Shown: positions 10,876 through 28,113 of the stretch, in pieces
Position numbering within the stretch: the stretch's first letter is position 1
Layout of the letters: every line of letters begins with the position of its first letter
Origin: Sedimenticola thiotaurini
Lineage (GTDB): Bacteria > Pseudomonadota > Gammaproteobacteria > Chromatiales > Chromatiaceae
Assembly (NCBI GenBank): GCA_011051715.1
Contig: DRKP01000021.1
Coordinates: 1-42,146, forward strand
Direction: 5' to 3'
Length of the DNA stretch: 42,146 nt
Program-made: the position numbers and the translations under genes
Notes under the pieces: model-generated
Seen by the model: only the letters and a program-made list of their open reading frames with translations
Told to the model about the DNA's origin: nothing
Database searches by the model: none

Positions 10876-11105
10876 TCCCTCCCTCCCACTTCCAGCACCA
10901 CCCGGTACTCGTCCTCTTCGCTGCTGGTCTCCAGCACGCGGTGGCCGTTGATGCGGCACCAGGCCGGAATGTCGTTGAGCGCCCCCGGATCGGTGCAGAC
11001 CGCCTCCACGATGGTGCCTGGATCGAGCTGCGCAACCCGGTCCTGGACCCGGATCACCGGCATCGGGCAGAGCAGCCGGCGCGCATCCACCACCACCCGG
11101 TTCAC
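10872..11105 (-). CDS. TusA/SirA-like sulfur carrier protein
   Basis: Small cytoplasmic sulfur-transfer protein of 77 residues. It has the family's LLCPMPVIRV motif with the persulfide cysteine at residue 13 and the beta-alpha-beta layout of TusA. TusA proteins carry sulfane sulfur to tRNA thiolases, molybdenum cofactor enzymes or oxidative sulfur pathways. It sits between a PP-loop thiolase-like gene and a CDF transporter, with ATGA overlaps on both sides. This suggests that it feeds the PP-loop enzyme (inference). Confidence 0.85.
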   Translation of the reverse strand: MNRVVVDARRLLCPMPVIRVQDRVAQLDPGTIVEAVCTDPGALNDIPAWCRINGHRVLETSSEEDEYRVVLEVGGRE

Positions 11106-12145
11106 AGGTGCCAGGCCTCGGGGATCTGGTCGGGGCGCAGCGGCGTCACCACCAGTTCCCGGGTGGCACCGTCCCGGTCCCGGTACTCCAGCGTCACCCG
11201 CTCCTGGTCCCGCCCCTTGCTGTAGCGCGCCACCAGGCGGGCGGCCAGCTCCAGGTCACCCTCCTCCACCACCCCGTCGATCAGGGCCAGTGGTCCGGGA
11301 TGGCTGACGCAGCGGATGCTGGGATACTGGTTGCGGTATCCCTGCAGGAAATTGCCCTCTCCCTCCTCCCGGGAGACGATCACCTTGTAGTGGGGTGCCG
11401 GCCGCAGATGCCGGCCCACCTTCAGCAGCATGATGTCATCCAGCTCGTACTGCTTGTCACCGCGGGCCCGCCACAGGTCCGCCAGCTTGGCCGAGTACTG
11501 GGCATCGGTGAGAAAACAGCAGCCACCTGCCGGCTGGGCGTAGTCCTCGAAGCCGAAACGGCGGGCCAGGGCCATCTGCGGCTTGCGACTGCGGCCGGAG
11601 AAGTCGTACAGCGCCTCCCGGTCGACCCAGCCCTCGCGCTCGGGCCTGGTGGGGGGCAGGTTCTTGGCGCACAGCGGCCGCAGCAGCAGGTCGTCGGCGC
11701 CCGATTCCCGGGACACCACCGGCATGGTGTCCCGACGCTGGGACATGGGCCGCTGGCCGATCACCTCGCCGGTGACGATGAAGTCGAAGCCGTGCTGCCC
11801 GATCCACTCGTGGGCCTTCCTCACCATGAAGATCTTGCAGTCGAGGCAGGGGTTGAGGTTGGCGCCGTAGCCGTGGCGCGGATTGAACACCACCTGCTTG
11901 TACTCCTCGATGATGTCGACGATGTGCAGCTTGATACCGAGCTGCTCGGCCACCCACAGGGCGTTGTTGCGCTTGGGCCGGTCACGGTCACGCCGGCGGA
12001 TGGCGTGGGTGTGGCCCTCGACGCAGAATCCGGTGAAGAAGTTGATCCCCTCGACGTGGATGCCCTGCTCCTGCATCACCCGGGCGGCGAGCAGTGAGTC
12101 GAGTCCGCCGGAGATCAGGGCTACGGCCTTGCGTGGTTCGGTCAT
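11102..12145 (-). CDS. PP-loop ATPase, ThiI/MnmA-related tRNA thiolase-like
   Basis: Protein of 347 residues with an N-terminal N-type ATP pyrophosphatase loop, ISGGLDSLL (11-19), and a GEVIGQRPMSQRRDT segment typical of ThiI/MnmA-type tRNA sulfurtransferases. Cys100 and Cys103 (NPCLDCK) plus Cys209/Cys210 (GGCCFL) form a CxxC-plus-C pattern like that of [4Fe-4S]-dependent thiolases. Residues after about 220 form a separate domain (ELDDIMLLKVGRHLRPAPHYKVIVSREEGEGNFL), possibly NFACT-R-like. The exact product (s4U8, s2U34 or another) cannot be decided. It is the first gene of the operon with TusA-like and CDF genes. Confidence 0.75.
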   Translation of the reverse strand: MTEPRKAVALISGGLDSLLAARVMQEQGIHVEGINFFTGFCVEGHTHAIRRRDRDRPKRNNALWVAEQLGIKLHIVDIIEEYKQVVFNPRHGYGANLNPCLDCKIFMVRKAHEWIGQHGFDFIVTGEVIGQRPMSQRRDTMPVVSRESGADDLLLRPLCAKNLPPTRPEREGWVDREALYDFSGRSRKPQMALARRFGFEDYAQPAGGCCFLTDAQYSAKLADLWRARGDKQYELDDIMLLKVGRHLRPAPHYKVIVSREEGEGNFLQGYRNQYPSIRCVSHPGPLALIDGVVEEGDLELAARLVARYSKGRDQERVTLEYRDRDGATRELVVTPLRPDQIPEAWHL

Positions 12146-12229
12146 GACGACGGGAGTGGAATGGGGCCGGGGAACGGGGCGGTCATTCTAATACAGATCG
12201 GCCGCCATGGGCCAAACGGCGGCCGCCGG

Positions 12230-15115
12230 TCACCGCTCCAGGAACAGGGATCCGGGCAGGGGGCCGGGGCGGCCGACGAAGTAGCCCTGGGCGAAGTCCA
12301 CCTGCAGTTCGCCCAGCATGCGCAGGGTCGTCTCGTCCTCGACGAACTCGGCCACGGTCTTCTTGCCCAGGCCTCTGGCCACCTCCGCCATCGCCTTGAC
12401 GAAGATGCGGTCGTCGCTGCTGTGTGCCAGATGCCGGATGAAGGAGCCGTCGATCTTGACCACGTCCACCGGCAGCTCCTTCAGATAGAAGAAGGAGGAG
12501 AAGCCGACACCGAAGTCGTCCAGCGCGGTACGGCAGCCCAGCTGCCGGATGGTGCCCATCAGCCGCTCGGCCGACTGGATGTCGGCCAGGGCGGCGGTCT
12601 CGGTGATCTCGACCAGCAGCCGGGCCGGGTCCACCCCGCTCTCCTGCAGCAGGGTCCGCAGCAGCGGCAGCAGTTCCGGGTCCCCCACCACCCGGCCGGA
12701 GAGGTTTAGGGAGAGAGAGACCCGGGCCGGGTCGGTCGCCTGCAGCGTGGCGATGGCGTGGCGCAGGACGTAGCGGTCGATGCGGTGGATCAGGCCGCTG
12801 CGCTCGGCCACCGGTATGAAGCTGCCCGGCATCGAGACCGAGTCGTCCCCGTTGCGCATCCGCAACAGGCACTCGTAGTGACTGACCCGGCTGTCGGTGA
12901 TCGCCATGATCGGCTGAAACTCCAGGAACAGGCGCTCCTGCTGCAGCGCCTGCTCGATGCGCTGCTTCCAGCGCACCTCCTCGTTCAGCTGCTCCCGTCG
13001 TTGCTCACCCCAGGAGAACAGGTGCCAGCGGCCCCGCCCCACGTCCTTCGCCTGGTACATCGCCAGGTCGGCGTTGGCCATCAGGTCCTGGATGTTGCCG
13101 CCATGATCGGGGAACAGGGCGATACCGATACTGGCCGAGATGCGATGACTGCGGCCATGTACCGGCAGTTCGATCTCCGCCAGGGTCTCCAGGATCCGGT
13201 TGGCCAGCCAGATGGCGCCATCGGCATCGGTCTCCGGCACTACCAGGGCGAACTCGTCTCCCCCCAGGCGCGCCAGGATGTCGCTGTCCCGGATCACCTG
13301 CCGCAGGGCATTGGCCACCACCCGCAGCATGGCGTCCCCGGCCTGGTGTCCGCTGGTGTCGTTGATGTACTTGAACTGATCCAGATCGAAGAAGAACAGC
13401 GCCCCCTGGCGCCGGTAGCGCTGGTTCAGAGTGAGGATCTGCTGAAAGTCGAGCTGAAACCGGCGCCGGTTGATCAGCTCGGTCAGGGGATCGTGATCGG
13501 CCAGCCAGGCGAGATTGCGCTCCGCCTCCTCCCGGTCGGTGATATCGAGGCCGACCGAGAGCACCCGCACCGCATCGGTACCGTCCGGGCCGATCAAGCG
13601 GGAATGGACCCAGGAGACACTGCGCCGCCGCCCGTCGGGGACCAGCACATGGCTCTCATGGTGATAGGACTCGATGCTCCCCTGCCGCAGCAGGGCCAGA
13701 TTGCGGTTCAGCTCTTCGCTGCGGGATGCCGGGTCCAGCATGTCGATGAAACGTTCCCGGCCGATGGCTGCGGTGTCCCGGCCGGTGACCCGCTGCCCCT
13801 CCAGATTGAGGCTGCGGAGGAACCCGTCGGCATCCTGGGTCAGGATCACCACCTGAGCGCTGTTCAGCAGCCCGGCGACGAAATCACGCTCTCTGGCCAG
13901 CGCCCTGCTGCGCTGGAGCAGGTTCTCGGTGCGGCTCTGTACCTTCCGGTCCAGTGCCTCCAGCCGGCTGGCCAGGGACATGGCCGCATCCAGGGCAACG
14001 TCGATCTCGTCCTCCAGCCACTGCTTCGTGCCGCTGCCCAGTTCCGACCGCACCTGCACCGTCTCTCCCCCGGCCAGCCGGGGGAGGGCGGATGCGAGGC
14101 GTTTCAGCCGGTTCATCGGCGCCCACAGCAGAAACAGCAGCAGCAGTTCCGACAGCAGCAGACCGGCCAGGCCGATGCCGATGCTCTGGTGGCGGGCCTT
14201 GTCGATATATGCGATCTCCGCCGTGATATCACCGATCAGCAGGAGATCGTTGTCGTCGTTCCAGGGCCGCCGGCCGGCTGGAACCCTCACTACCTCCAGG
14301 CTGCTCTCCTCGAAATCGAACCGGTAGGGCCGGCCGGCCGCGATCCGGGACAGCACGATCCGTTCCGAGATGGACCGCAGCGCCGGGATCAGCCGCTGCG
14401 GGGACGAGGCAAGGGCCAGCCGGCGCCCCCATCGGGGCAGCCATCTCGCGTCTTCTTCCAGTCCGCTGGCGGGGCGGTCGCCGGTGACGATCGCCAGGTC
14501 GGAACCACTGATGCTGCGAAAGGTGGAGACCGTATCCGCCACGGTCCGTCCCAGCAGCAGCACCCCGGTGACCTGGCCCTGCAGCAGCAGGGGCACTGCG
14601 ACCAGCTGGTGGCACTCCGTTGTACAGTGCAACAACTTGCCCACTGTCTCCGTCCGCAGGGCCTTCCGCATCATCTCCCGCACCACCTGATCGTCGCCGG
14701 TGCCGCCCTGGGAATAGCGCACCTTCCCCCCGGCATCCATGAACAGGAGGGTGGTGATGTCCCAGTCGACCTCCAGCGCGGCCGCCCGGCCGGTCAGCTG
14801 GCGTACCAGCCGGTCCTCCAGGGAGAGCATGGGGAACCATCCTTCGCTGCCCTCCATGACCAGGGGCCCGATCCGCTCCAGGCTGGAGAAACTCCGTTCG
14901 ACCAGGGCACTGAATTCACGAATACGGCGCTCTGCACTGAGTGCGCGCTGGCGCTGGAACTGCCCCTCCAGGCGCATCACGCCGAGGGTGACCAGGGATA
15001 CGTTGACCGCCAGCAGGATCAGGCTCAGCAGCAGCACCGCCTTCCACTTGAGGCTGAAGAAGAGCGGGGGACGACCGGTCGGCGCAGGCCGGTGAATGGC
15101 GGCGAGCCGGGACAT
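12230..15115 (-). CDS. Membrane PAS-GGDEF-EAL cyclic-di-GMP protein with periplasmic sensor
   Basis: Protein of 961 residues. A membrane helix at about 25-46 and another at about 310-333 flank a periplasmic sensor of about 265 residues. A coiled coil (about 375-410), a PAS domain (about 412-525), GGDEF (about 538-700) and EAL (about 715-955) follow. The GGDEF motif is intact (RLGGDEF, 616-622) with an RxxD inhibitory site at 609-612. The EAL motif reads ECL (748-750), but the other catalytic elements (LNLSG, EITET, DDFG, KIDGSF, AEFVE, AQGY) are present, so both activities are possible. The periplasmic part has CTTECH (164-169), a CX3CH pattern that could bind heme c. It starts 3 bp after the barrel gene. 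Confidence 0.92.
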   Translation of the reverse strand: MSRLAAIHRPAPTGRPPLFFSLKWKAVLLLSLILLAVNVSLVTLGVMRLEGQFQRQRALSAERRIREFSALVERSFSSLERIGPLVMEGSEGWFPMLSLEDRLVRQLTGRAAALEVDWDITTLLFMDAGGKVRYSQGGTGDDQVVREMMRKALRTETVGKLLHCTTECHQLVAVPLLLQGQVTGVLLLGRTVADTVSTFRSISGSDLAIVTGDRPASGLEEDARWLPRWGRRLALASSPQRLIPALRSISERIVLSRIAAGRPYRFDFEESSLEVVRVPAGRRPWNDDNDLLLIGDITAEIAYIDKARHQSIGIGLAGLLLSELLLLFLLWAPMNRLKRLASALPRLAGGETVQVRSELGSGTKQWLEDEIDVALDAAMSLASRLEALDRKVQSRTENLLQRSRALARERDFVAGLLNSAQVVILTQDADGFLRSLNLEGQRVTGRDTAAIGRERFIDMLDPASRSEELNRNLALLRQGSIESYHHESHVLVPDGRRRSVSWVHSRLIGPDGTDAVRVLSVGLDITDREEAERNLAWLADHDPLTELINRRRFQLDFQQILTLNQRYRRQGALFFFDLDQFKYINDTSGHQAGDAMLRVVANALRQVIRDSDILARLGGDEFALVVPETDADGAIWLANRILETLAEIELPVHGRSHRISASIGIALFPDHGGNIQDLMANADLAMYQAKDVGRGRWHLFSWGEQRREQLNEEVRWKQRIEQALQQERLFLEFQPIMAITDSRVSHYECLLRMRNGDDSVSMPGSFIPVAERSGLIHRIDRYVLRHAIATLQATDPARVSLSLNLSGRVVGDPELLPLLRTLLQESGVDPARLLVEITETAALADIQSAERLMGTIRQLGCRTALDDFGVGFSSFFYLKELPVDVVKIDGSFIRHLAHSSDDRIFVKAMAEVARGLGKKTVAEFVEDETTLRMLGELQVDFAQGYFVGRPGPLPGSLFLER

Positions 15116-15118
15116 GGT

Positions 15119-16333
15119 TCAGAACCCGACGGACAACAACAACGAGAACATGTACCAGTTGCGCACGGTGGCGAATGGGTTGGGGTTCTCCTCGTTGGAG
15201 AGAAAGGCGGTGCCATCGACACGGTCATACTGGCCGCGCAGCATGATGTGCTCGTTCGGGCTCCAGGTCAGGCCGAAGGTCCAGGTATGGCTGTAGAAGA
15301 GATGGGCTGGCAGGCCCTTCTCGTCGCCCTGCCTCTCGCCATCGCGATCCGTTTTGTCGTGGAAGGCGGCGTCGTAGCGCAGCAGCAGCTCCCAGTCGGG
15401 CAGGGGCCGGTAGGTACCCTGCAGGTAGGCGCCATCGGCGGTGTTCCTCCTGTCGCGCACGACATCTTCGAACCCGCTCCAGCGCACCGGCTCCTGCATG
15501 TACTCCGCGGTCAGGCTCCAGTTCTCACCGTTGTACTGAAACGAGCCGACGAAGTAGTCGATGTCGATGGATCCGGCAACCAGCGGATCGACTTCCGCCG
15601 GCCGGTATGCCATGGTAGTGGTGATGCCGCTCAGGGCCAGGCGCAGACGGCCGTCGTCCAGCTCGTAGAGGGCCCGGCCCACGAAGCCCGGGGAGTCGCT
15701 CTCCACCGATCCCGGCCAGTCGTAGCCGAGATAGGCCCACTCCAGGTTATCGTCGATCGGCGGATTGCCGACACCGAGCTGGAGCGACAAACCGTGCCGG
15801 CCGCGATAGAACTCGCCGTACAGCTGGGCGCCATCGTTGGAGAGCATGATGTCCCGCAGCTTGTCCCAGTAGACCGACTGGGGCAGGAACACGCTGGGCC
15901 GGGTGAAGGGAACGTCGCGGGTGTCGTTGTAGAGGCCGATTGGATTCTTGAACCGTCCCGCGACCAGTCCGACGCGCCGGTACTCGTCGGAGAGGACGGT
16001 GAGATCCACCAGTCCATAGTCCAGGTTGAGGCCACCTTCGCTCATCTCGCCCGCCTTGCGCGACAGCAGCTGGGCCGAGACCAGCCAGCGCGGGCTGAAC
16101 CGGAACGAGGCGTTCAGACCGATCTCGCGGAAATCGAAACTGCCCTGTTCCGAATCGCCGTAGAAACTGTTGTCGCTGCTGTCGACGTAGCCCTGGGAAA
16201 GGAAACCGTGGATCTGAAGGTCGTTCCACCACTCCGGCTCCTGTGCCGCCACGGTCGCGGCCGGCAGCAGCAGGAACAGGACACACAGCCAGTGAGACCG
16301 GCTAGTGCAGGTCGATTTTTCGAACGCTGTCAT
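15119..16333 (-). CDS. Outer-membrane beta-barrel (porin-like) protein
   Basis: Predicted outer-membrane protein of 404 residues. A signal peptide (SHWLCVLFLLLPAATVAAQ) is followed by alternating amphipathic strands, with short segments such as IHGFLSQGYV, FSPRWLVSAQLLSR and WTFGLTWSPNEHIMLRGQYDRV, and a C-terminal strand ending in phenylalanine (YMFSLLLSVGF), the usual assembly signal. No substrate can be assigned. ATG 16333 is chosen because it gives the signal peptide; the frame is open upstream. It overlaps the 3' end of the phosphate-binding-like gene by 32 bp and lies 3 bp before the GGDEF/EAL gene. Confidence 0.8.
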   Translation of the reverse strand: MTAFEKSTCTSRSHWLCVLFLLLPAATVAAQEPEWWNDLQIHGFLSQGYVDSSDNSFYGDSEQGSFDFREIGLNASFRFSPRWLVSAQLLSRKAGEMSEGGLNLDYGLVDLTVLSDEYRRVGLVAGRFKNPIGLYNDTRDVPFTRPSVFLPQSVYWDKLRDIMLSNDGAQLYGEFYRGRHGLSLQLGVGNPPIDDNLEWAYLGYDWPGSVESDSPGFVGRALYELDDGRLRLALSGITTTMAYRPAEVDPLVAGSIDIDYFVGSFQYNGENWSLTAEYMQEPVRWSGFEDVVRDRRNTADGAYLQGTYRPLPDWELLLRYDAAFHDKTDRDGERQGDEKGLPAHLFYSHTWTFGLTWSPNEHIMLRGQYDRVDGTAFLSNEENPNPFATVRNWYMFSLLLSVGF

Positions 16334-16724
16334 CAATTCGATCCTCGGGTAGATAGCCGATTGCACCTGGCGTACCGGCGACGCGCCGTCGCATCTCATC
16401 GACGCTGTCCACCTGCTGGGGTGCCTGGCCGACACCGGAATAGACGCGCCGGTCCCAGGAGCGGCGCAACTGGTGGGGAAACACCTGGAGTACCCGCTTG
16501 CTGAACTCCCGGTGTAGCGGATCCCGGTCCTTCAGTACGAAGACCCGGACCGGAGTCCCGTCGGGCCACGACAGCAGACGCATGTTGAAGATGGCCCGGA
16601 CCTTGTCTTGTGTCAGGGAGGTTTCAGTGACCGCGGGATTGACCACCAGTTCCACCGCGACGGCAGGCAGCGTCAGCCACAGCGCGCTGATCAGGATCAG
16701 GCTGTTGATGAACCACCTTCCCAC
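16302..16724 (-). CDS. PstS-like periplasmic substrate-binding protein (short)
   Basis: Periplasmic protein of about 140 residues resembling the short PBP-like family annotated as phosphate ABC transporter substrate-binding. Features are an N-terminal hydrophobic segment (FINSLILISALWLTLPAVA), TETSLTQDKVRAIFNMRLLSWPDGTPVRVFVLKDRDPLHREFS split over the first half, and the TPGAIGYL motif near the end. It is too short for a full two-lobed PstS, and no Pst permease is nearby. I chose GTG 16724 because it places the signal peptide at the N-terminus; an ATG at 16838 would add 38 residues. It is first in an operon with the barrel and GGDEF/EAL genes, so a sensing role is plausible (inference). The 315-bp gap to glyQ shows no gene. 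Confidence 0.72.
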   Translation of the reverse strand: MGRWFINSLILISALWLTLPAVAVELVVNPAVTETSLTQDKVRAIFNMRLLSWPDGTPVRVFVLKDRDPLHREFSKRVLQVFPHQLRRSWDRRVYSGVGQAPQQVDSVDEMRRRVAGTPGAIGYLPEDRIDDSVRKIDLH

Positions 16725-17039
16725 CCTTCGATTCCCCGCCTCCGATGTTGCGCGCCGTGTTCTGACGGAGAGCCCCGGCACTGCGGCGCCTACGGCACCG
16801 GGCCCTGTTCCCTTCGATTCACCCTTGGTCCTTCCCATAGCGGCCCGGAGCTGACCCCCTTTACCCCCGTCGGCGAACTTTTTTTCCCGTGTCCGGCAGG
16901 GGGTGGACGGTCCTTACCGGCACATCCGCCAACCCCCGGGGACGTCGACGTACCCGACCGGATCGATGCCAAATGAAAATTAACGGCGGCGAAGATATAC
17001 TACAAGATCGTTATTCCTCACTACCACCGGACCATTGAA

Positions 17040-17978
17040 TTGAGCAAGGAAATCGTTGTCGGCAAGCCGGATCTGACCACTTTTCAGGGGTTGATCTTCG
17101 CCCTCGAGCAGTACTGGGCACAGCAGGGTTGCGTCGTCCTGCAACCCTATGACATGGAGATGGGTGCCGGCACCTTCCACACCGCCACCTTCCTCCGGTC
17201 CATCGGACCGGAGCCATGGAACGCCGCCTATGTACAGCCGTCCCGCCGCCCCACCGACGGGCGCTACGGCGAGAACCCCAACCGGCTGCAGCACTACTAC
17301 CAGTTCCAGGTGGTGATGAAGCCCTCACCCCTCGATATCCAGGAGCGCTACCTGGCGTCGCTGAAACTGCTCGGCATCGATCCCGGCGTTCACGACATCC
17401 GCTTCGTGGAGGACAACTGGGAATCCCCCACCCTCGGCGCCTGGGGCCTGGGTTGGGAGGTCTGGCTCAATGGCATGGAGGTGACCCAGTTCACCTACTT
17501 CCAGCAGGTGGGGGGCCTCGACTGCCGCCCGGTGACGGGTGAGATCACCTACGGGCTGGAACGGATCGCCATGTACATCCAGGGGGCGGAGAGCGTGTTC
17601 GACCTGGTCTGGACCCACGGTCCCCAGGGCGACGTCACCTACGGCGACGTGTTCCATCAGAACGAGGTGGAACAGTCGGCCTACAACTTTGATCACGCCG
17701 ACGTCGCCTTCCACTTCACCCTGTTCGACCAGTGCGAGGCCACCTGCAACCGGCTGATCGGGCTGGGGCTGCCCCTGCCGGCCTACGAACAGGTGCTGAA
17801 GGCCTCCCACGCCTTCAACCTGCTGGATGCCCGCCACGCCATCTCGGTCACCGAGCGCCAGCGCTACATCCTGCGCGTGCGCACCCTGGCCCGGGCGGTG
17901 GCCCAGGCCTACTACGAGGCCCGGGAGAAGCTGGGCTTTCCGATGCTGACCCGGGAGCCGGAGGTGACCCATGGCTGA
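17040..17978 (+). CDS. glyQ: Glycyl-tRNA synthetase alpha subunit
   Basis: Class II synthetase catalytic subunit of the bacterial alpha2beta2 enzyme, 312 residues. Strong family segments are [47 protein letters not shown] (given in part), [18 protein letters not shown] and [15 protein letters not shown]. No ATG fits; TTG 17040 gives the expected N-terminus ([15 protein letters not shown]). No clear Shine-Dalgarno is seen. A TATACT-like -10 lies near 16995. The 3' end overlaps glyS by 8 bp. Confidence 0.95.
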
Positions 17979-20040
17979 GCGTGCCGACCTGCTGTTCGAA
18001 CTGGGCACCGAGGAGCTGCCGCCCACCGCCCTGAAGAGCCTGTCCGGGGCCCTGCAGAGGGAATTCGCCGCGGGCCTGGAGAAGGCCGGGCTCGACCATG
18101 GGGAGATCACCCCCTTCGCCACACCCCGACGGCTGGCCCTGCGGATCGAGGCGCTGGCCCTGGCCCAGCCCGACCGGGAGATGGAACGCCGTGGCCCGGC
18201 CCTGCAGGCGGCCTTCGATGCCGACGGCCGGCCCACCAGGGCAGCCGAGGGATTCGCCCGCTCCTGCGGCACCACGGTGGAGCAGCTGCAGCGCATCCGT
18301 ACCGACAAGGGAGAGTGGCTGGCCTACCGCATCCACGAGAAGGGCCGGCGCGCCGCCGAACTGCTGCCCGCCATCGCCGAGACCGCCCTCGGACGGCTGC
18401 CGATCCCCAAGCGCATGCGCTGGGGCGATTCCGATGCCCAGTTCGTGCGCCCGGTCCACTGGCTGCTGTTCCTCCACGGTGACCAGGTGATCCCCTGCAC
18501 CCTGCTCGATGCCCGCGCCGGCCGGGAGACCCGGGGGCACCGCTTCCACCACCCCGGTCCCATCCCGATCGACGACATCGGACGCTATGAACAGGTGCTG
18601 GAGGAACAGGGAAAAGTAATCGCTCACTTCGACCGGAGGGCACGGCATATCGAAGATCAGGTACAGCGCACGGCGGAGACCATCGGCGCCGTCGCGCAGA
18701 TCGACCCGAACCTTCTGGAAGAGGTGACCGCGCTGGTGGAGTGGCCCCAGCCCATCGCCGCCGGCTTCGAGGAGCGGTTCCTGGAGGTGCCCCACGAGGC
18801 GCTGATCCTGACCATGAAGAAGAACCAGAAGTACTTCCACCTGCTGGACGGGGAGGGACGGCTGGTCAACCACTTCATCACCATCGCCAATATCGAGAGC
18901 CCGACGCCGGAGGTGATCAAGGAGGGCAACGAACGGGTGATCCGCCCGCGCCTCGCCGACGCCATGTTCTTCTGGGAACAGGATGGCAAACGGCGCCTGG
19001 AGGATCACGTCGACTCCCTCAAGGAGGTGGTGTTCCAGCAGCAGCTCGGCAGCATGTACGAGAAGTCGGAACGGGTGGCCACGCTGGCGGCCTGGATCGC
19101 CGGGCTGATCGACGGTGACCCGGCCATGGCCCGGCGGGCCGCCATGCTCAGCCGCTGCGACCTGATGACGGAGATGGTCTACGAGTTCCCCGAGATGCAG
19201 GGGATCATGGGCCGTTACCAGGCCCGGCGCGACGGCGAGCCGGAGGAGATCGCCACCGCCATGGACGAGTTCTACATGCCCCGCTTCTCCGGCGACCGCC
19301 TGCCGACCACCCGCACCGGCATCGCCATCGCCCTGGCCGAGCGCATCGACACCCTGACCGGCATCATCGGCATCGGCCAGCGCCCCAGTGGCGACAAGGA
19401 CCCCTTCGCCCTGCGCCGCGCCGCCCTCGGTGCCCTGCGCATCATGAAGGAGCACGCCCTGCCGATACCGCTGCAGGCCCTGCTGGAACAGGCGGCGTCC
19501 GCCCTCGCCGGGCGGATCACCGGGGCGGACACCCTGTCCCAGGTGCGGTCGTTCATGCTCGACCGGCTCAAGGGGATCTACCTGGAGCAGGGTATTCCCG
19601 CCACCCTGTTCGAGGCGGTGGCAGCGGTCCATCCCGACAGCGTGGCCGACTTCGACCGGCGCATCCAGGGCCTGGTCACCTTCGAGCGGCAACCGGAGGC
19701 TGAGGCCCTGGCAGCGGCCAACAAGCGCATTCGCAACATTCTGCGCAAGGCCGGAGAGGAGCCGCCGGAAACGGTGGACGAGACCCTGTTCGGGGATGAC
19801 GCCGAGCGCAACCTGCACCGGCGGCTGACGGAGAAGGCGGGCGAGATCACCCCCCTGCTGGAACGCTACGACTACGAGGCCGTGCTGCTGACGCTGGCCG
19901 CCCTGCGCCAGCCGGTGGACGAATTCTTCGACCGGGTGATGGTGATGGCGGACGATCCGGCGGTGCGCCGCAACCGGCTGGCGCTGTTGAACCAGTTGAG
20001 CCGGCTGTTCCTCCAGGTGGCCGACATCTCCCATCTGTGA
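17971..20040 (+). CDS. glyS: Glycyl-tRNA synthetase beta subunit
   Basis: Beta subunit of the tetrameric glycyl-tRNA synthetase, 689 residues, the same size as in E. coli. It begins [18 protein letters not shown], the usual N-terminus, and contains [34 protein letters not shown] and RVLRPRLADA-type segments (here [17 protein letters not shown]). The C-terminus carries a tRNA-binding DALR-like region with [20 protein letters not shown]. It overlaps glyQ, implying translational coupling. Confidence 0.96.
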
Positions 20041-20066
20041 GGCAACGACCGAGGGAGGACAACGGG

Positions 20067-20414
20067 ATGGGCACCAGGGCAGACAGGAACGACTGGAAGG
20101 CCATGATGGACGCCGTCCAGGCATTCCACGACAAACACCGGTTCCGGGAGACGGGGGGGGAAGAGATGACCTACCGCGTCGCCCTGATGGCCGAGGAGCT
20201 GGGCGAGATCTCCGCCTGTGTCACCAAGGGCAAGCCGGCCGGGGAGCTGGCGGAGGAGGTGGCCGACCTGCTGATCCTGGTGATGGGCACTGCCATCGCC
20301 CGCGGATTCGACCTGAACCAGGCATTCTGGGACAAGATGGACCGGCTGATGCAACGGCAGTCCCGCATGGTGGACGGCAGGATCCGGGTATCCGAATTCG
20401 ATGGGATGGATTGA
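20067..20414 (+). CDS. MazG-like nucleotide pyrophosphohydrolase
   Basis: All-alpha NTP pyrophosphatase family protein of 115 residues. The metal-binding pattern is visible as MAEELGEISAC followed by EEVADLLILVMG (E-x2-E ... E-x2-D). Members hydrolyse (d)NTPs or related nucleotides, often for pool cleaning. ATG 20067 has a good GGGAGG Shine-Dalgarno about 10 bases upstream; an earlier in-frame start overlapping glyS is less likely. It lies 26 bp after glyS, so it is probably in the same operon. Confidence 0.82.
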   Translation: MGTRADRNDWKAMMDAVQAFHDKHRFRETGGEEMTYRVALMAEELGEISACVTKGKPAGELAEEVADLLILVMGTAIARGFDLNQAFWDKMDRLMQRQSRMVDGRIRVSEFDGMD

Positions 20415-20436
20415 TGTAAGTATGTATTTACTTACA
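20415..20436. repeat. Short palindrome between mazG-like and gmhB-like genes
   Basis: Perfect 8-bp arms TGTAAGTA and TACTTACA flank a 6-bp loop directly after the mazG-like stop. The sequence is AT-rich in a GC-rich setting. A second small hairpin (GTGGC/GCCAC) follows at about 20443-20455. No T-run makes a clear terminator. Confidence 0.6.
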
Positions 20437-20504
20437 CTATCTGTGGCAGAGCCACCAGGCATTTGCAGCACACTGCCGAACAGCAAGCAGCCAGCGAAGC
20501 GGCG

Positions 20505-21080
20505 ATGACGGCGACCTGCGCAAAGGCGGTGATCCTCAGTCGCGACGGGGTCATCAACGAGGAGGCCGATGGCTTCATCAAGTCACCCCAGGAGTGGCGG
20601 CCCATCGCCGGCAGCCTGGAGGCCATCGCCCGCCTCAACCAGGCCGGCTGCCAGGTGATCGTCACCACCAACCAGCCGGGGCTGGCCCGGGGGCTGTTCG
20701 ACATCGATACCCTGAACGCGATCCACAAGCGACTCTACCGCCAGCTCGACCGGCTCGGTGGCCACCTGGACGGCATCTTCTTCTGCCCGCACCGACCCAG
20801 CGACAACTGCCCCTGCCGCAAGCCGAGGCCGGGAATGATCGAACAGGCCCGGGAGCGCTTCCATCTGGACCTGGCCGACACCGTCATGATCGGGCATCAG
20901 TCGCGGGACCTGGAGGCGGCCAGAGCAGCCGCCGTCCGCCCGATCCTGGTCATGACCGGCCAGGGCCGCAGGACCCTGGAACAACTCCCCCAACCGCCCG
21001 GGATCCCCTGTTTCGAGAACCTGGCCGATGCGGCACAATTCGTTCTCTCCGGTACCACCCAGGTGCCGTCGGAACACTGA
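20505..21080 (+). CDS. GmhB-like HAD protein lacking key catalytic aspartates
   Basis: 191-residue homolog of D-glycero-D-manno-heptose-1,7-bisphosphate 7-phosphatase. The fold signatures are clear: VINEEADGFIKSP, TTNQPGLARG, the zinc ligands C94, H96, C102 and C104 (CPH...CPC), and KPRPGM with the motif III lysine at 106. But motif I reads LSRDG, with Ser12 where the nucleophilic Asp should be, and motif IV reads IGHQSRD, with His131 in place of the metal-binding Asp. Phosphatase activity by the usual HAD mechanism is therefore unlikely. It may be a pseudoenzyme or a decaying gene. A TTG start at 20463 is possible; ATG 20505 is preferred. plsC follows. Confidence 0.8.
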   Translation: MTATCAKAVILSRDGVINEEADGFIKSPQEWRPIAGSLEAIARLNQAGCQVIVTTNQPGLARGLFDIDTLNAIHKRLYRQLDRLGGHLDGIFFCPHRPSDNCPCRKPRPGMIEQARERFHLDLADTVMIGHQSRDLEAARAAAVRPILVMTGQGRRTLEQLPQPPGIPCFENLADAAQFVLSGTTQVPSEH

Positions 21081-21133
21081 CCTGACGGGCCGTTTCCCGG
21101 CCCCGCCTTTCTGCAGTCGAGGTAACGACGACG

Positions 21134-21853
21134 ATGCTGGTTCTGCGATCTCTCCTCTATTTCCTGTCGATGATCGTGACCACCCTGGTGTTCAGCCTGT
21201 TGATCATCCTCTTCGGCCCGTTTCTGCCCTTTCGCCAGGTATCGTGGTTCGCCAACAGCTGGGGACTGGTCAACCTGAAACTGCTGAAATGGATCTGCGG
21301 TCTCGACTATCGTCTCCACGGCACCGAGCACATCCCCGACCGGCCCTGCATCATCCTGTCCAAGCACCAGTCCGCCTGGGAGACCATCGCCTTCCGCCAT
21401 CTCCTGCCGCCGCTGCAGACCTGGGTACTGAAACGGGAACTGATGTGGATCCCCGTGTTCGGCTGGGCCCTGGCCCTGTGCCAACCGATCGCCATCGACC
21501 GCAAGGCGGGCAAGCAGGCGGCGAAACAGATCATCGACAAGGGTACCGAGGCCCTCGACAAGGGGCGCAACGTCATCATTTTTCCGGAGGGTACCCGAGT
21601 CGCCCCGGGGACACACAAGAAATACGGGATCGGAGGTGCCCTGCTGGCGAAGAAATCCGGCTACCCGGTCCTGCCTGTCGCTCACAACGCCGGCGTATTC
21701 TGGCGCCGGCGGGCGCTGGAGAAGCGCCCCGGCACCATCCAGGTCGTGTTCGGTCCGCTGATCGAGACCGACGGCCTCTCCGCCGCCGCCATCAACCGCA
21801 AGGTGGAGGAGTGGATCGAATCGACGGTGCAGCAGCTGCCGGGGGAGGGGTGA
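21134..21853 (+). CDS. 1-acylglycerol-3-phosphate acyltransferase-like (PlsC family)
   Basis: Membrane-associated acyltransferase of 239 residues, probably converting lysophosphatidate to phosphatidate. An N-terminal membrane helix (LLYFLSMIVTTLVFSLLIILFGPF) precedes the catalytic motif, here KHQSAWE with His78 and Glu83 (H-x4-E rather than the common H-x4-D), and the glycerol-phosphate-binding motif FPEGTR (150-155). The LPVAHNAG and GTIQVVFGPLI elements follow. It lies 53 bp after the gmhB-like gene in the glyQS cluster. The 162-bp convergent gap after it contains only a short dispersed repeat. Confidence 0.88.
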   Translation: MLVLRSLLYFLSMIVTTLVFSLLIILFGPFLPFRQVSWFANSWGLVNLKLLKWICGLDYRLHGTEHIPDRPCIILSKHQSAWETIAFRHLLPPLQTWVLKRELMWIPVFGWALALCQPIAIDRKAGKQAAKQIIDKGTEALDKGRNVIIFPEGTRVAPGTHKKYGIGGALLAKKSGYPVLPVAHNAGVFWRRRALEKRPGTIQVVFGPLIETDGLSAAAINRKVEEWIESTVQQLPGEG

Positions 21854-21920
21854 CCGGAAGCCCGGAGTTCGTTATCCGATCTCCATCGGCAACCCGGCTG
21901 CCACCAGGCAGGGCATTCTC

Positions 21921-21946
21921 GTCGATTCGCGTTTATTCGCGGCCAG
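21921..21946 (-). repeat. Short dispersed repeat (shared with 33643-33668)
   Basis: The minus strand reads ctggccgcgaataaacgcga followed by atcgac. It matches 33643-33668 at 20 of the first 22 positions, in inverted orientation. Similar CGCGAATAAACGCGAAT strings recur in many bacterial genomes (from memory). Confidence 0.5.
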
Positions 21947-22015
21947 GAGATCCTGTCCGCACGGGCCTCGCCAAACCGGGCCGTGGATTCCGCTCCCGCT
22001 GGGACGGATTCGGTC

Positions 22016-22726
22016 TCAGTCGTCGAAGACGACCGTGATCCGCCGGTTTCGCCTGCCCTTCTTTTCGATCTTCCTGATCCGCACCGGGCCGATCTCCGCG
22101 GTCGAGGCGACGTGGGTGCCGCCACAGGGCTGCAGGTCCACGTCCCCGAAGCGGACCAGGCGCACGCGACCGGATCCGGTGGGCGGTTTCACCGACATGG
22201 TCCGGACCAGTTCCGGCTGCTGCTCCAGCTCCTGATCGGTGATCCAGCGGATCTCCATGGGATGATCCTCCTGGATCAGGCGGTTCAGCTCGCGGCCGAT
22301 GGCCTCCTTGTCCGGTGGTTCCGGCAGGTCGAAATCGAGCCGGGCGCTGCCATCGTCACGCACCGATCCCCCGGTGACGCCCGCCGGCACCACCGCGCAC
22401 AGCAGGTGCATGCAACTGTGCATGCGCATCAGGCGGTGACGGCGCTCCCAGTCGATCTCCAGCGTCACCGTCTCCCCCACCCCGGGGCACTGGGATCCCT
22501 CGGCCAGCAGGTGGAGCAGCTCGCCGCTCTCCCTCTCCTTGCGCGTGTCCACCACCTGCAGCTCGCTGCCGTCGGCGCGGATCATGCGCCCGGTATCGCC
22601 GGGCTGGCCGCCGCCGGTGGGATAGAAGATGGTCCGGTCGAGGCGGACGCCGCGTTCATCGCACGCCTCCACCCGGGCCTCTATCCTCTTCAGGTAGCCA
22701 TCCTCCCGAAACAGTTCGTCGGTCAT
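22016..22726 (-). CDS. Alanyl-tRNA editing hydrolase, AlaX-like
   Basis: Free-standing editing protein related to the AlaRS editing domain; it deacylates Ser-tRNA(Ala) and related mischarged tRNAs. The 236 residues contain FYPTGGGQPGDTG, zinc ligands His103 and His107 (MHSCMHLL), and Cys201 and His205 (QPCGGTHV). ATG 22726 has a GGAG about 9 bases upstream. An in-frame ATG 9 bp earlier would overlap this site. It faces the plsC gene convergently. The AT-rich sequence at 22770-22815 may carry its promoter. Confidence 0.88.
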   Translation of the reverse strand: MTDELFREDGYLKRIEARVEACDERGVRLDRTIFYPTGGGQPGDTGRMIRADGSELQVVDTRKERESGELLHLLAEGSQCPGVGETVTLEIDWERRHRLMRMHSCMHLLCAVVPAGVTGGSVRDDGSARLDFDLPEPPDKEAIGRELNRLIQEDHPMEIRWITDQELEQQPELVRTMSVKPPTGSGRVRLVRFGDVDLQPCGGTHVASTAEIGPVRIRKIEKKGRRNRRITVVFDD

Positions 22727-22783
22727 CGATCCCATCTCCAGTTACCGGGACATCGCCGGATTGAACCCGGAAAAATAATATAA

Positions 22784-22799
22784 CTTATTGATTAATAAG
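22784..22799. promoter_or_regulatory. AT-rich palindrome between gyrB and alaX
   Basis: CTTATT (22784-22789) and AATAAG (22794-22799) form a 6-bp dyad inside a very AT-rich stretch (about 22770-22815). On the minus strand it offers several TATATT/TATTAT-like -10 elements for the alaX gene. It could also act in gyrB 3' end formation, though no clear terminator is seen. Confidence 0.35.
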
Positions 22800-22874
22800 A
22801 TAATTAACGAGATTTTCAGAGCCAGATCGCAAGCGAACGGGAGGTCCCCCGGGGCCGGCATGCCGGGCCTAGGA

Positions 22875-25283
<2,409 letters not shown>

Positions 25284-25308
25284 TCAACTCCATAGATGAA
25301 CCGAACCA

Positions 25309-26376
25309 TTATACACCGTCCGGCACCATCGCCCCATGTTCCACGTGGAACATGACATCGGAGACCCTATTGCTGAAGATTCCCGCATCTGTCGCCGTAA
25401 TGAAGACCTGGGAGTCGTTCACCCTCAGCCTGTCGAGCATTCTCTCCCGGTGCTCCCGATCCAGTTCGGCGGCCAGGTCATCCATCAGAATGACCGGCCG
25501 CTTTCCAGTCCGTTCCCGGATCAGGCGGGTCTGGGCCAGGAACAGCCCACATACGATCAGTTTCTGCTGTCCCCTGGAGGCCCACTGTCTCGACAGCTCC
25601 CCCTCGAGCCTTACTACCAGGTCGGCGCGGTGGGGACCTGCGTGGGTGAATCCCCGACTCAGATCGGCAGAGCGGTTTCTGTCCAGGGACTCACCGAGGT
25701 CCTGTTCCGCGTCCCACCCCCTTCTCCATTCCAGGCGCACCTGCTGACCATCCAGAAGATGCTGCATCTCCTCTTCCAGATATCGGGAGAGTTCCTCGAC
25801 ATACCCCCTCCGAATCCGGTCTATCGATCCGGCGAGTTCGATGATCTCCTCATCCCAGAGGGCATGGATGTCCTGCTGGTTCTTCAGGGCGGCATTCCGC
25901 TGCGTCAGGGCACGGTGATACCTGGAGGAGAGTCTCTGGTATCCATGTTCCACGTGGAACACTCCCCATTCGATGAACCGTCTTCGAACACCTGCACCCG
26001 CTTCGAGAAGCTCATGGGATCGAGGGGTGATGATGTGAATCGGCAACTGTTTCGCCAGGGTGGAGAGCTTCCGTACGCTGGTACCGTTCATGCGAACAGT
26101 GATCTCCCTGGCAGAGCGTCGTATACCGATCCGGGTGGAGATCCCGCTGTCCCTTATCTGTCCCGTCACCTCATACCAGGGTTTCCCCTTCATGATGACC
26201 GCACGGCTCTTCGACTCCCGGAACGATCGACCTCTTCCCAGGATATAGATCGCCTCCAACAGGGAGGTCTTGCCGGAACCATTGGTTCCGACGATCAGGT
26301 TGATTCCCTGCTGGGGCCGCAGGTGGATCTCAACGAGATTGCGGAGGTTTCTGATGCTGATCGACTCCAGGGCCAT
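25309..26376 (-). CDS. recF: DNA replication and repair protein RecF
   Basis: SMC-like ATPase that helps load RecA at gaps, 355 residues. Walker A is VGTNGSGKTSLLEAI; the signature region THAGPHRADL and the Walker B ILMDDLAAELD are present. Two perfect 16-bp parS palindromes lie inside the coding sequence and encode nearly the same peptide twice (VFHVEHG at about 138-144 and MFHVEHG at the C-terminus). The first falls within the family-conserved core; the second is in the variable tail. It is separated from dnaN by an unusual 462-bp gap. Confidence 0.97.
   Translation of the reverse strand: MALESISIRNLRNLVEIHLRPQQGINLIVGTNGSGKTSLLEAIYILGRGRSFRESKSRAVIMKGKPWYEVTGQIRDSGISTRIGIRRSAREITVRMNGTSVRKLSTLAKQLPIHIITPRSHELLEAGAGVRRRFIEWGVFHVEHGYQRLSSRYHRALTQRNAALKNQQDIHALWDEEIIELAGSIDRIRRGYVEELSRYLEEEMQHLLDGQQVRLEWRRGWDAEQDLGESLDRNRSADLSRGFTHAGPHRADLVVRLEGELSRQWASRGQQKLIVCGLFLAQTRLIRERTGKRPVILMDDLAAELDREHRERMLDRLRVNDSQVFITATDAGIFSNRVSDVMFHVEHGAMVPDGV
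25337..25352. promoter_or_regulatory. parS: parS site (ParB binding), within recF 3' end
   Basis: TGTTCCACGTGGAACA is a perfect 16-bp palindrome equal to the Pseudomonas-type parS sequence, lying in the chromosomal origin region where parS sites cluster. ParB should load here for origin segregation. Confidence 0.9.
25946..25961. promoter_or_regulatory. parS: parS site (ParB binding), within recF
   Basis: A second exact TGTTCCACGTGGAACA palindrome, 609 bp from the first. Two identical 16-mers of this kind so close together are very unlikely by chance. Confidence 0.9.
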
Positions 26377-26454
26377 TGCACTTCCTGATTACCCCCAATC
26401 TCCAGCCATCCTACAACAGCACTGGGCAATTCGGTCTCTTGAAAATTGAGATTC

Positions 26455-26521
26455 ACCACAAAGCCACGGAGATTGGAAGAATGTTTCGTTCCTTACCACG
26501 ATATCTCTGTGGCTCTGTGGT
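26455..26521. repeat. Dispersed inverted repeat in recF-dnaN gap
   Basis: ACCACAAAGCCACGGAGAT (26455-26473) is nearly the reverse complement of ATCTCTGTGGCTCTGTGGT (26503-26521); 17 of 19 positions pair. It resembles the widespread ACCACAGAGACACAGAGA-type repeat of many bacterial genomes (recalled, not searched). The 26522-26700 stretch shows nothing else clear. Confidence 0.65.
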
Positions 26522-26703
26522 CGATCACTGTGACAGAAGGACTCTGCACCGCCGTCGCGGAATCGGGTTCAGAAATAACCAGGTTTCGCTTATTCGTGCA
26601 GATCGGCAACGTGGGATTGGGTGGAGGTATGGTGCTTGGGCCGACTCTGGTCTACCGCCTCCCCTGGCTCAGACCAACCGTTCGCCGACTTGTCCAGTGA
26701 TAG

Positions 26704-26838
26704 TGAACCCCCGGGATCTGATCCCGGAAGCCCGGGAAAGAGCCCCGGGATCGTCATCCCGGCGCAGGTCGGAATCCATTCCTTTCGACCGCCTGCTTCC
26801 AGGCCGGCGCCGGCCTGGCGGGTTCATGTTGACGGGCC
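26704..26838. repeat. CCCGGG-rich and ATTCCC-type repeat cluster
   Basis: This stretch contains the dyad CCGGGATC-t-GATCCCGG, several further CCCGGG strings, and cgtcatcccggcgcaggtcg followed by gaatccattc, which resembles the common GTCATTCCCGCG...GGGAATCC repeat. It ends directly at the dnaN stop codon. No open reading frame is convincing here. Confidence 0.5.
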
Positions 26839-27939
26839 TTAGAGCCGCATGGGCATGATCACGTAGCGGCTGTCCGCGTTGCTGTCGTCCTCGATCAGGC
26901 AGCTGCTGTTTGGATCACTCAGGGAGAGACGGACCCGGTCCGAATCGATCACATTGAGGACCTCGAGCAGATAGCCCACGTTGAAGCCGATCACCAGATC
27001 CTCCCCATCGTAATCGACTTCCAACTCCTCCTGGGCCTCCTCCTGTTCCGGGTTGTGGGCCAACAGCTCCAGCATCCCGCGGGAGAACTGGAACCGGATC
27101 CCCCGGTATTTCTCGTTGGAGAGGATCGAGGTCCGCTGCAGGGCCTGCCGCAGGGTCTCCTTGTCGGCCACGACGCGCTTGCTCGAGTCCATCGGAATCA
27201 CCCGCTGGTAATCCGGGAACTTGCCGTCGATCAGCTTCGAGGTGAAGACGGTATCGTTGAAACTGATCCTGATGTGGTTGCTCGAGATATCGACTGCGAC
27301 CTCTTTCTCATCCTCGGACAGCAGTCGTCCCAGCTCCAGTACCGCCTTGCGTGGAATGATCACCTGGACGCTGACATCACTGCCGGCACTACAGTCCGCC
27401 TCACTCAGGGCGAGACGATGGCCGTCTGTCGCAACACTGCGGATCCTGCCATCGTCCAGCTCCAGCAGCATGCCGTTCAGGTAGTAGCGCACATCCTGCT
27501 GTGCCATCGCGAAATGGGTCTTGTCGATCAGACGCTTCAGGAGCTTTTCGTCGATCGAGAACCGGTGACTGCTCGCCATCGGTTCGATCACCGGATAGTC
27601 CTGGGCCGGCAGGATCCCGAGTGTGAACCGGCTGCGGCCGGAGAGGACCTTCGCCTTCTCCCCTTCCACCTCGATGGTGATCTCCGCACCATCCGGCAGG
27701 GCACGACAGATATCGATCAGTTTCCTGGCCGGCAGGGTGAAGTCCATTTCGCCATCACACTGCACCGCTACCCGGGTCTTCATCTCTACCTCCAGGTCGG
27801 TGGCGGTGATCGTCAGCTGCCCCTTCTCCGCATTGACCAGGATATTGGCCAGAATCGGCAGGGTCTGTCTTCGTTCCACCACGCCTCCCACCTGTTGCAG
27901 GGGGGGGAGAAAGGTATCCTTGTTGGTAACGATCTTCAT
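26839..27939 (-). CDS. dnaN: DNA polymerase III sliding clamp (beta subunit)
   Basis: Ring-shaped processivity clamp of the replicase, 366 residues as in E. coli. It starts MKIVTNKDTFLPPLQQVGGVVERRQ (in part) and ends with the typical YVIMPMRL. Three clamp-fold repeats are evident (for example ITATDLEVEM, VATDGHRLALSEAD, FNVGYLLEVLNVI). ATG 27939 matches the family start; an in-frame ATG 27 bp earlier is unlikely. It is the first gene after the putative oriC spacer, transcribed away from dnaA in the same direction. Confidence 0.98.
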   Translation of the reverse strand: MKIVTNKDTFLPPLQQVGGVVERRQTLPILANILVNAEKGQLTITATDLEVEMKTRVAVQCDGEMDFTLPARKLIDICRALPDGAEITIEVEGEKAKVLSGRSRFTLGILPAQDYPVIEPMASSHRFSIDEKLLKRLIDKTHFAMAQQDVRYYLNGMLLELDDGRIRSVATDGHRLALSEADCSAGSDVSVQVIIPRKAVLELGRLLSEDEKEVAVDISSNHIRISFNDTVFTSKLIDGKFPDYQRVIPMDSSKRVVADKETLRQALQRTSILSNEKYRGIRFQFSRGMLELLAHNPEQEEAQEELEVDYDGEDLVIGFNVGYLLEVLNVIDSDRVRLSLSDPNSSCLIEDDSNADSRYVIMPMRL

Positions 27940-28113
27940 GGCGAAGTTCTCTTTATCAATAATCAATATAAAGAATATTTATTATCTATTGTTGTTGTTA
28001 AGGGCCGGCCAGGCTGTGGATATACTTCAATTAATGCTTATTTTTCAATAGGTTATCCATTGAACTCCTTGTTGAAAAGGTCTGTATGCGAAGACCCGGG
28101 GCTGTCCATGTCT

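Follow-up and report, generated by a model that had tools for sequence, protein, structure and literature searches.

A conserved cassette of a PstS-like half-protein, an outer-membrane barrel and a GGDEF-EAL sensor as a probable trans-envelope signalling device in Sedimenticola thiotaurini and its relatives

Architecture of the operon

The stretch of DNA analyzed here, 42,146 nucleotides of contig DRKP01000021.1 from Sedimenticola thiotaurini (assembly GCA_011051715.1; hereafter the window), carries on its minus strand, at positions 12230-16724, an operon of three genes which encode a small periplasmic protein related in fold to the phosphate-binding protein PstS, a predicted outer-membrane barrel and an inner-membrane protein with domains for making and breaking cyclic di-GMP (c-di-GMP). 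The first-pass annotation of this DNA had delimited the same operon, and its coordinates were confirmed: the barrel gene starts inside the small-protein gene, with a 32-bp overlap, and a gap of 3 bp separates it from the third gene. We consider it likely that the three genes encode a single trans-envelope signalling device. The features of the operon are as follows:

16302..16724, minus strand: small-protein gene, 140 amino acids, GTG start; single-lobe PstS-like periplasmic protein
15119..16333, minus strand: barrel gene, 404 amino acids; weakly Porin_O_P/Porin_4-like at the family level, with a C-terminal Phe
12230..15115, minus strand: third gene, 961 amino acids; inner-membrane dCache_3-PAS-GGDEF-EAL protein
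14201..14983, minus strand: periplasmic double Cache domain, residues ~45-305, from an AlphaFold model and double-Cache structural matches
14612..14626, minus strand: C-x3-C pair, residues 164-168, in the turn between strands 159-164 and 168-178
13529..13867, minus strand: PAS_4 domain, residues 417-529
13031..13501, minus strand: GGDEF domain, residues 539-695, with RxxD and GGDEF motifs
12266..12964, minus strand: EAL domain, residues 718-950, with ECLLR, NLS, EITE, DDFG and KID motifs
12199..12225, minus strand: terminator-like stem-loop directly 3' of the third gene, from a consensus scan only

The start codon of the small-protein gene is uncertain, since its reading frame extends without a stop as far as an ATG at 16838.

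Phyletic distribution and exchange of outputs

In a sample of 370 genomes, evenly drawn from the class and spread over many families, strong matches (thresholds of 1e-19 for the small protein, 1e-40 for the barrel and 1e-15 for the sensor protein encoded by the third gene, set after viewing the tables) were recovered for the small protein in 31 genomes, for the barrel in 33 and for the sensor in 32. The barrel is present in all 31 genomes with the small protein, and 28 genomes possess all three genes; in the two barrel genomes without the small protein (G341 and G171) the end of a contig cuts the barrel gene. This association is far beyond chance (Fisher p 4e-43 for small protein and barrel; the Fisher tests on genome co-occurrence reported here take no account of kinship), and a chance neighbourhood was set aside on this ground. 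The earlier proposal that the three parts form one sensing unit has hence withstood the co-occurrence check suggested along with it, the genes not being independently distributed. A second collection (genome_contigs), comprising the best 80 of at least 569 candidate loci found through the barrel and therefore biased to close relatives, gave a comparable picture, with the small protein in 79 loci and the order small protein-barrel-sensor on one strand in 67. The other orders are barrel-small protein (3 loci), sensor-small protein-barrel (1) and barrel alone (1). Hosts named among these 80 loci include Sedimenticola, Thiodiazotropha, Chromatiaceae and Nitrosomonadaceae. Two loci (L128, 7407-13084; L152, 4032-9956) show a tandem duplication of the small protein-barrel pair ahead of a single sensor gene.

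The output changes in some lineages while the sensing parts stay. In one genome of the class sample (G172) the barrel gene is followed by a hybrid histidine kinase gene instead of the sensor, another locus (L160) has a histidine kinase gene directly after the small protein-barrel pair, and in a third (L133) the same dCache_3 sensor domain is borne by a hybrid histidine kinase. More distant pairs of half-PstS and barrel, in many cases with the barrel gene first, were surveyed in 40 stretches around weaker small-protein places and in 6 plasmid records with crude calling of open reading frames (ORFs); one stretch (L197) was dropped as no small-protein ORF passed, leaving 45 loci. A chemoreceptor, c-di-GMP enzyme or kinase is encoded within two same-strand genes on either side of the pair in 23 of these 45 loci, as against 8 of 221 genes lying farther away, a comparison of loci, each with up to 4 neighbours, against single genes; in the other 22 loci the flanking same-strand genes include none of these three classes. 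Annotated instances are found in Massilia putida, with a chemoreceptor and then a diguanylate cyclase nearby, in Ideonella, and in Caballeronia, with an EAL protein, while a record of Pseudoalteromonas shioyasakiensis has a chemoreceptor near the pair on the opposite strand. At one locus (L167, 3538-5964) an ORF of 809 amino acids without a Pfam match directly follows a barrel-small protein pair.

The small periplasmic protein and the barrel

Neither the small protein nor the barrel of the window was matched by Pfam or NCBIfam at an E value of 1e-3. The small protein has an N-terminus which by eye resembles a signal peptide, and its AlphaFold model, based on an alignment of 41 sequences, attained a mean predicted local distance difference test score (pLDDT) of 92.9. 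The best structural matches of this model are PstS proteins, over their second lobe only (against residues 108-215 of 4lat, Z 16.8 and root-mean-square deviation 1.2 over 104 aligned residues), and the small protein is therefore half a PstS; the label "PstS-like" given to it earlier is thus right at the level of the fold. The near-invariant residues of the family are His71, Trp90, Gly97, Pro102 and Tyr124. His71, which lies in the phosphate loop, is kept in 115 of 117 distinct close homologues; among 54 distant small proteins its column holds Arg in 38, Lys in 5 and His in 4, and Trp90, Gly97 and Pro102 are found in all 54. On an Alteromonas plasmid (L002, 5968-11503) the small-protein gene is followed by an ORF of 387 amino acids, beside the type IV CRISPR genes csf1-csf5.

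In PstS proteins the Arg and the Ser-Gly-Thr of the phosphate loop bind phosphate. Unlike them, the small protein is devoid of the first lobe, and with it of the two-lobe cleft, and lacks the Arg/Ser-Gly-Thr loop: the stretch "REASSGT" of the Vibrio cholerae phosphate receptor (1twy) stands opposite the family consensus "DKDPLHR", with "PLHR" in the place of "SSGT". Given the single lobe and the near-invariant His in this loop, phosphate is an unlikely ligand, and the hint of phosphate binding contained in the first-pass annotation is not supported; phosphate sensing was set aside on the same grounds.

The barrel is a predicted outer-membrane channel, assigned through matches at the level of the family and the C-terminal Phe, which is also as far as the earlier designation "barrel" could be borne out. 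At an E value of 0.01, Pfam matches in the family were to Porin_O_P (20 of 65 sequences), Porin_4 (16 of 65) and OMP_b-brl (15 of 65), the barrel of the window itself matching only TonB_dep_Rec_b-barrel with a score below the cut-off. A comparison of the family profile with the sequences of solved structures yielded nothing useful (best E 0.22). Invariant positions of the 65-sequence alignment include the charged residues E70, D105, R139, R160 and E277 as well as the final Phe. The nearest barrel among the 80 best loci, from a Sedimenticola metagenome-assembled genome, is 58% identical.

The PstS fold, together with the weak matches of 20 of the 65 barrels to phosphate-selective porins, would accord with a function in the uptake of phosphate or another nutrient, in which the two proteins would supply a transporter whose genes lie elsewhere, with the c-di-GMP gene as a passenger. 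We regard this as very unlikely, as the protein is a single lobe with a replaced loop and a conserved His71, the pair is strictly associated with a signalling protein, and a PstC gene is located on another contig of the genome (C2), near that of a PBP_like_2 protein. In agreement with the first-pass annotation, the neighbouring genes that were examined include no Pst permease.

The sensor and its c-di-GMP domains

The third protein matches dCache_3 (PF14827) with 42.6 bits against a cut-off of 25.7. Its periplasmic region was modelled with a mean pLDDT of 90.2 as a double-Cache fold, with structural matches to many chemoreceptor and kinase domains (Z ~10-12), which agrees with the 265-residue periplasmic sensor that had been read from the DNA in the first pass; a search of the sensor profile against the sequences of solved structures gave nothing useful (best E 0.12). 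Of 131 distinct homologous rows, 21 end before the region of the C-x3-C pair because the locus ends, and all 110 which cover it possess both Cys164 and Cys168, with varying residues between them. In a control of 30 listed dCache_3 loci from one class, a list that favours strong dCache_3 matches, the pair was present in 9 of 9 loci of the sensor family and in 0 of 21 others, implying that it marks this receptor family and not dCache_3 domains generally.

One possibility is that the receptor is a redox or thiol sensor, with the two cysteines forming a reversible disulphide and the barrel and small protein supplying an oxidant, metal or sulphur compound. The universal presence of the pair amid variable residues and its absence from other dCache_3 loci favour this, as does the membership of many of the named hosts in groups of sulphur or ammonia oxidizers. 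An invariant periplasmic Cys pair can, on the other hand, be a purely structural disulphide, and the remainder of the module would be left unexplained; we therefore judge this account unlikely.

In the window, the third protein keeps the GGDEF, RxxD and EAL motifs, and these catalytic motifs suggest a bifunctional GGDEF-EAL enzyme. By pattern, 95 of 103 distinct homologues with 700 or more amino acids have a GGDEF motif, 65 have RxxD and 76 have all three EAL patterns. Three family members (from loci L231, L232 and L138) are without a GGDEF motif recognizable by pattern.

An acyltransferase neighbour in relatives

A gene for an acyltransferase of the TIGR03694 type (PEP-CTERM/exosortase-associated) was detected in 32 of the 80 best loci, and in 27 of the 68 among them which have all three genes, with a profile built from 4 of the linked copies (E <= 9.3e-33). 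It lies beside the small-protein gene in 28 loci (19 co-directional, 9 divergent; gaps of at most 615 bp) and downstream in 4. The NCBIfam scan covered 19 of the 32 linked copies, with scores compared to the cut-off for 4, and all 19 match TIGR03694; the linked copies measure 245-318 amino acids by longest ORF, save for one cut by the end of a contig. In the class sample (calls at E 1e-20, one fragment row of G074 omitted) 12 of the 31 operon genomes have the acyltransferase near the cassette: in 9 it is less than 1 kb from the small-protein gene, and in 3 it is at about 4.1 kb, adjoining the sensor gene (G219) or lying beyond it (G317 and G241). No acyltransferase was found within 20 kb of any of 110 weaker small-protein places in the same sample. 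At the level of genomes, 21 of 31 operon genomes encode it, against 34 of 339 others (p 1.5e-12, Fisher), whereas genomes with only weaker small proteins show no significant association (10 of 61; p 0.42). Five further linked cases (G389, G398, G390, G410 and G399), compared by eye, came from a family sample, and on a Halomonas plasmid (L001) the gene is located just 3' of the sensor gene. A tree built from 46 copies linked to the cassette and 20 unlinked ones requires no fewer than 7 changes of the linked state, and well-supported branches force at least 3 of them.

Against solved structures, the acyltransferase profile matches synthases of acyl-homoserine lactones (AHLs), including LasI (E 3.9e-5); the FeeM structure is absent from its 8 matches with E values of 1 or lower. 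The family has been connected with N-acyl amino acid synthases, and literature passages tie it to the PEP-CTERM/exosortase system, which is associated with exopolysaccharide. The window operon itself has no acyltransferase beside it, all three TIGR03694 copies of the genome being on another contig (C137), in a stretch where two ORFs end in a PEP-CTERM-like manner by pattern.

Since the acyltransferase is linked to the cassette and not to the weaker places, a self-made acyl signal becomes a testable hypothesis: the cassette could be the receiving side of chemical signalling and sense a diffusible product of the TIGR03694 enzyme, either an N-acyl amino acid or a molecule resembling AHLs. The linkage in 12 of 31 class genomes and 32 of 80 loci against 0 of 110 weaker places, the excess at the genome level, the several gene arrangements with repeated changes of the linked state, and the assignment of all 19 scanned copies to a family whose profile matches LasI and other AHL synthases speak for it. 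It is opposed by the unlinked state both in the window genome and in the locus retrieved from its nearest relative (L062), by the lack of the gene in 48 of the 80 best loci and in 10 of the 31 operon genomes, and by weak matches of 6 of the 19 copies to ornithine acyltransferases, which would mean membrane lipids; moreover, a double Cache domain and a PstS lobe are not an obvious lipid binder. On balance the acyl signal is a tentative and rather unlikely proposition. Alternatively, the acyltransferase could be an output, with c-di-GMP controlling an envelope lipid or exopolysaccharide to which the enzyme contributes, and the genes kept together by a shared biofilm programme. The published tie of the family to an exopolysaccharide-associated system agrees with this possibility. 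Against it, at 245-318 amino acids the enzyme leaves little room for a PilZ domain, and no PilZ family appeared among the matches of the 19 scanned copies. We view it as conceivable, if on the unlikely side.

Three loci of Lamprocystis and a Chromatiaceae metagenome-assembled genome (L113, L117 and L122; 7947-12492) have barrel then small protein and no sensor; downstream of the pair lie an ORF that by eye resembles ThiF/E1 and a gene for a TIGR03694-type acyltransferase; in L117 there is also a protein weakly similar to the cyc_nuc_ocin and encapsulin families. A similar ThiF-like ORF (L280, 5042-5920) lies near the TIGR03694 copies of the window genome.

Surroundings of the operon

Upstream of the operon, and divergent from it, are glyQ and glyS. 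These genes share the window (17040-27966) with gyrB and dnaN, which suggests that the operon probably lies near the replication origin. At 11102-12145 the window encodes a PP-loop (ThiI/MnmA-like) protein fused to an NFACT-R_2 RNA-binding domain. An Rfam scan of the window returned nothing at the gathering threshold, so that no c-di-GMP riboswitch of a described family was recognized.

Comparison with known systems

The VpvABC system of V. cholerae combines a porin, a periplasmic binding protein and a diguanylate cyclase, and passages of a published account predict for it the same three-layer sensing, describe VpvA and VpvB as adding to c-di-GMP and rugosity, though less than VpvC, call ligand passage through the porin and hand-over likely, and report vpvAB pairs without vpvC in many Gamma- and Betaproteobacteria (PMC12456836). 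The main text of that paper has no word starting with "exosortase" or "acyl". Passages of a second study report that mutation of the VpsT site in the vpvABC promoter lowers c-di-GMP by 40% (PMC8754643). As far as these passages describe it, VpvABC thus resembles the window operon in having the same three kinds of part in one unit and the same predicted mechanism. It differs in its order, porin-binding protein-cyclase as opposed to binding protein-porin-GGDEF/EAL, and in its output, a cyclase in place of a GGDEF and EAL hybrid with dCache_3 and PAS domains. The two were compared by description, the distant homologues used being barrel-first pairs from other bacteria, in which both small protein and barrel are distantly homologous to those of the window. 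By analogy, the operon would work like VpvABC and is best described as a variant within this kind of system, set apart by its gene order and output; we do not claim membership in VpvABC, because of these two differences and because the comparison is one of descriptions. The operon is also reminiscent of NspS-MbaA and further binding protein-GGDEF/EAL receptor pairs, in which a periplasmic binding protein acts on an inner-membrane c-di-GMP enzyme, and is unlike them in that the binding protein is one PstS lobe and the barrel a near-constant third part. A description of the cassette was not evident in our literature search, nor was a paper tying TIGR03694 to a c-di-GMP receptor operon, and "N-acyl amino acid synthase" and "diguanylate cyclase" were not found together in any paper searched. 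New points, none of them described in the searchable literature, are the phosphate-loop His, the C-x3-C pair of the receptor and the presence of the acyltransferase gene nearby in relatives.

Proposed mechanism and its implications

The genes with their domains and motifs, their strict co-occurrence and the exchange of outputs with the sensing parts kept form the observational basis of the trans-envelope device, for which we infer physical interaction of the parts, signal entry, enzymatic activity, a direction of the c-di-GMP response and the chemical nature of the signal. The barrel would admit or bind a small signal at the outer membrane, and the single-lobe PstS-like protein would serve as a periplasmic carrier or adaptor. 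Its complex, or the signal itself, would then act upon the double-Cache domain of the third protein, in the inner membrane, and would thereby shift the balance between the GGDEF domain, which makes c-di-GMP, and the EAL domain, which breaks it. The C-x3-C hairpin might provide a disulphide-closed contact or a thiol switch.

A number of observations weigh against such a device. Eight of the 80 best loci encode small protein and barrel, in that order, but no sensor, though one of these (L141) stops inside the barrel and another (L108) less than 200 bases past it, and in one genome (G267) the sensor is on a different contig from the small protein; these cases suggest that the pair may exist alone. 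The sensor is also missing in three barrel genomes of the class sample (G023, G172 and G066), in the last of which the contig ends at the expected site of the sensor, the barrel occupying 119-1255 of the contig, while two genomes (G054 and G137) have a distant sensor without a barrel. The full catalytic motifs are missing, by pattern, from part of the 103 sensor homologues. Finally, passages of the work on V. cholerae record that deletion of vpvABC is without effect on c-di-GMP in strain E7946 (PMC8754643).

The boldest reading which the data allow is that the cassette constitutes the receptor of a widespread, hitherto undescribed form of cell-to-cell signalling in Chromatiales, ammonia-oxidizing and related bacteria, in which an N-acyl amino acid or a comparable acyl signal, made by the AHL-synthase-like TIGR03694 enzyme, would pass via the barrel and half-PstS to the C-x3-C double-Cache domain and be relayed to c-di-GMP, or in at least one lineage to a histidine kinase. 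We consider this rather unlikely, and the linkage is absent in the window itself. If true, it would provide a physiological role for the N-acyl amino acid synthases that are associated with PEP-CTERM/exosortase loci. Many c-di-GMP receptors are without a known signal; here the receptor comes with a presumptive gate and a periplasmic partner, and the candidate signal-making enzyme beside the cassette in many relatives points to a concrete class of ligands. More generally, the distribution of these genes suggests that the combination of a porin with a half-PstS is a general front end for c-di-GMP enzymes, histidine kinases and chemoreceptors.

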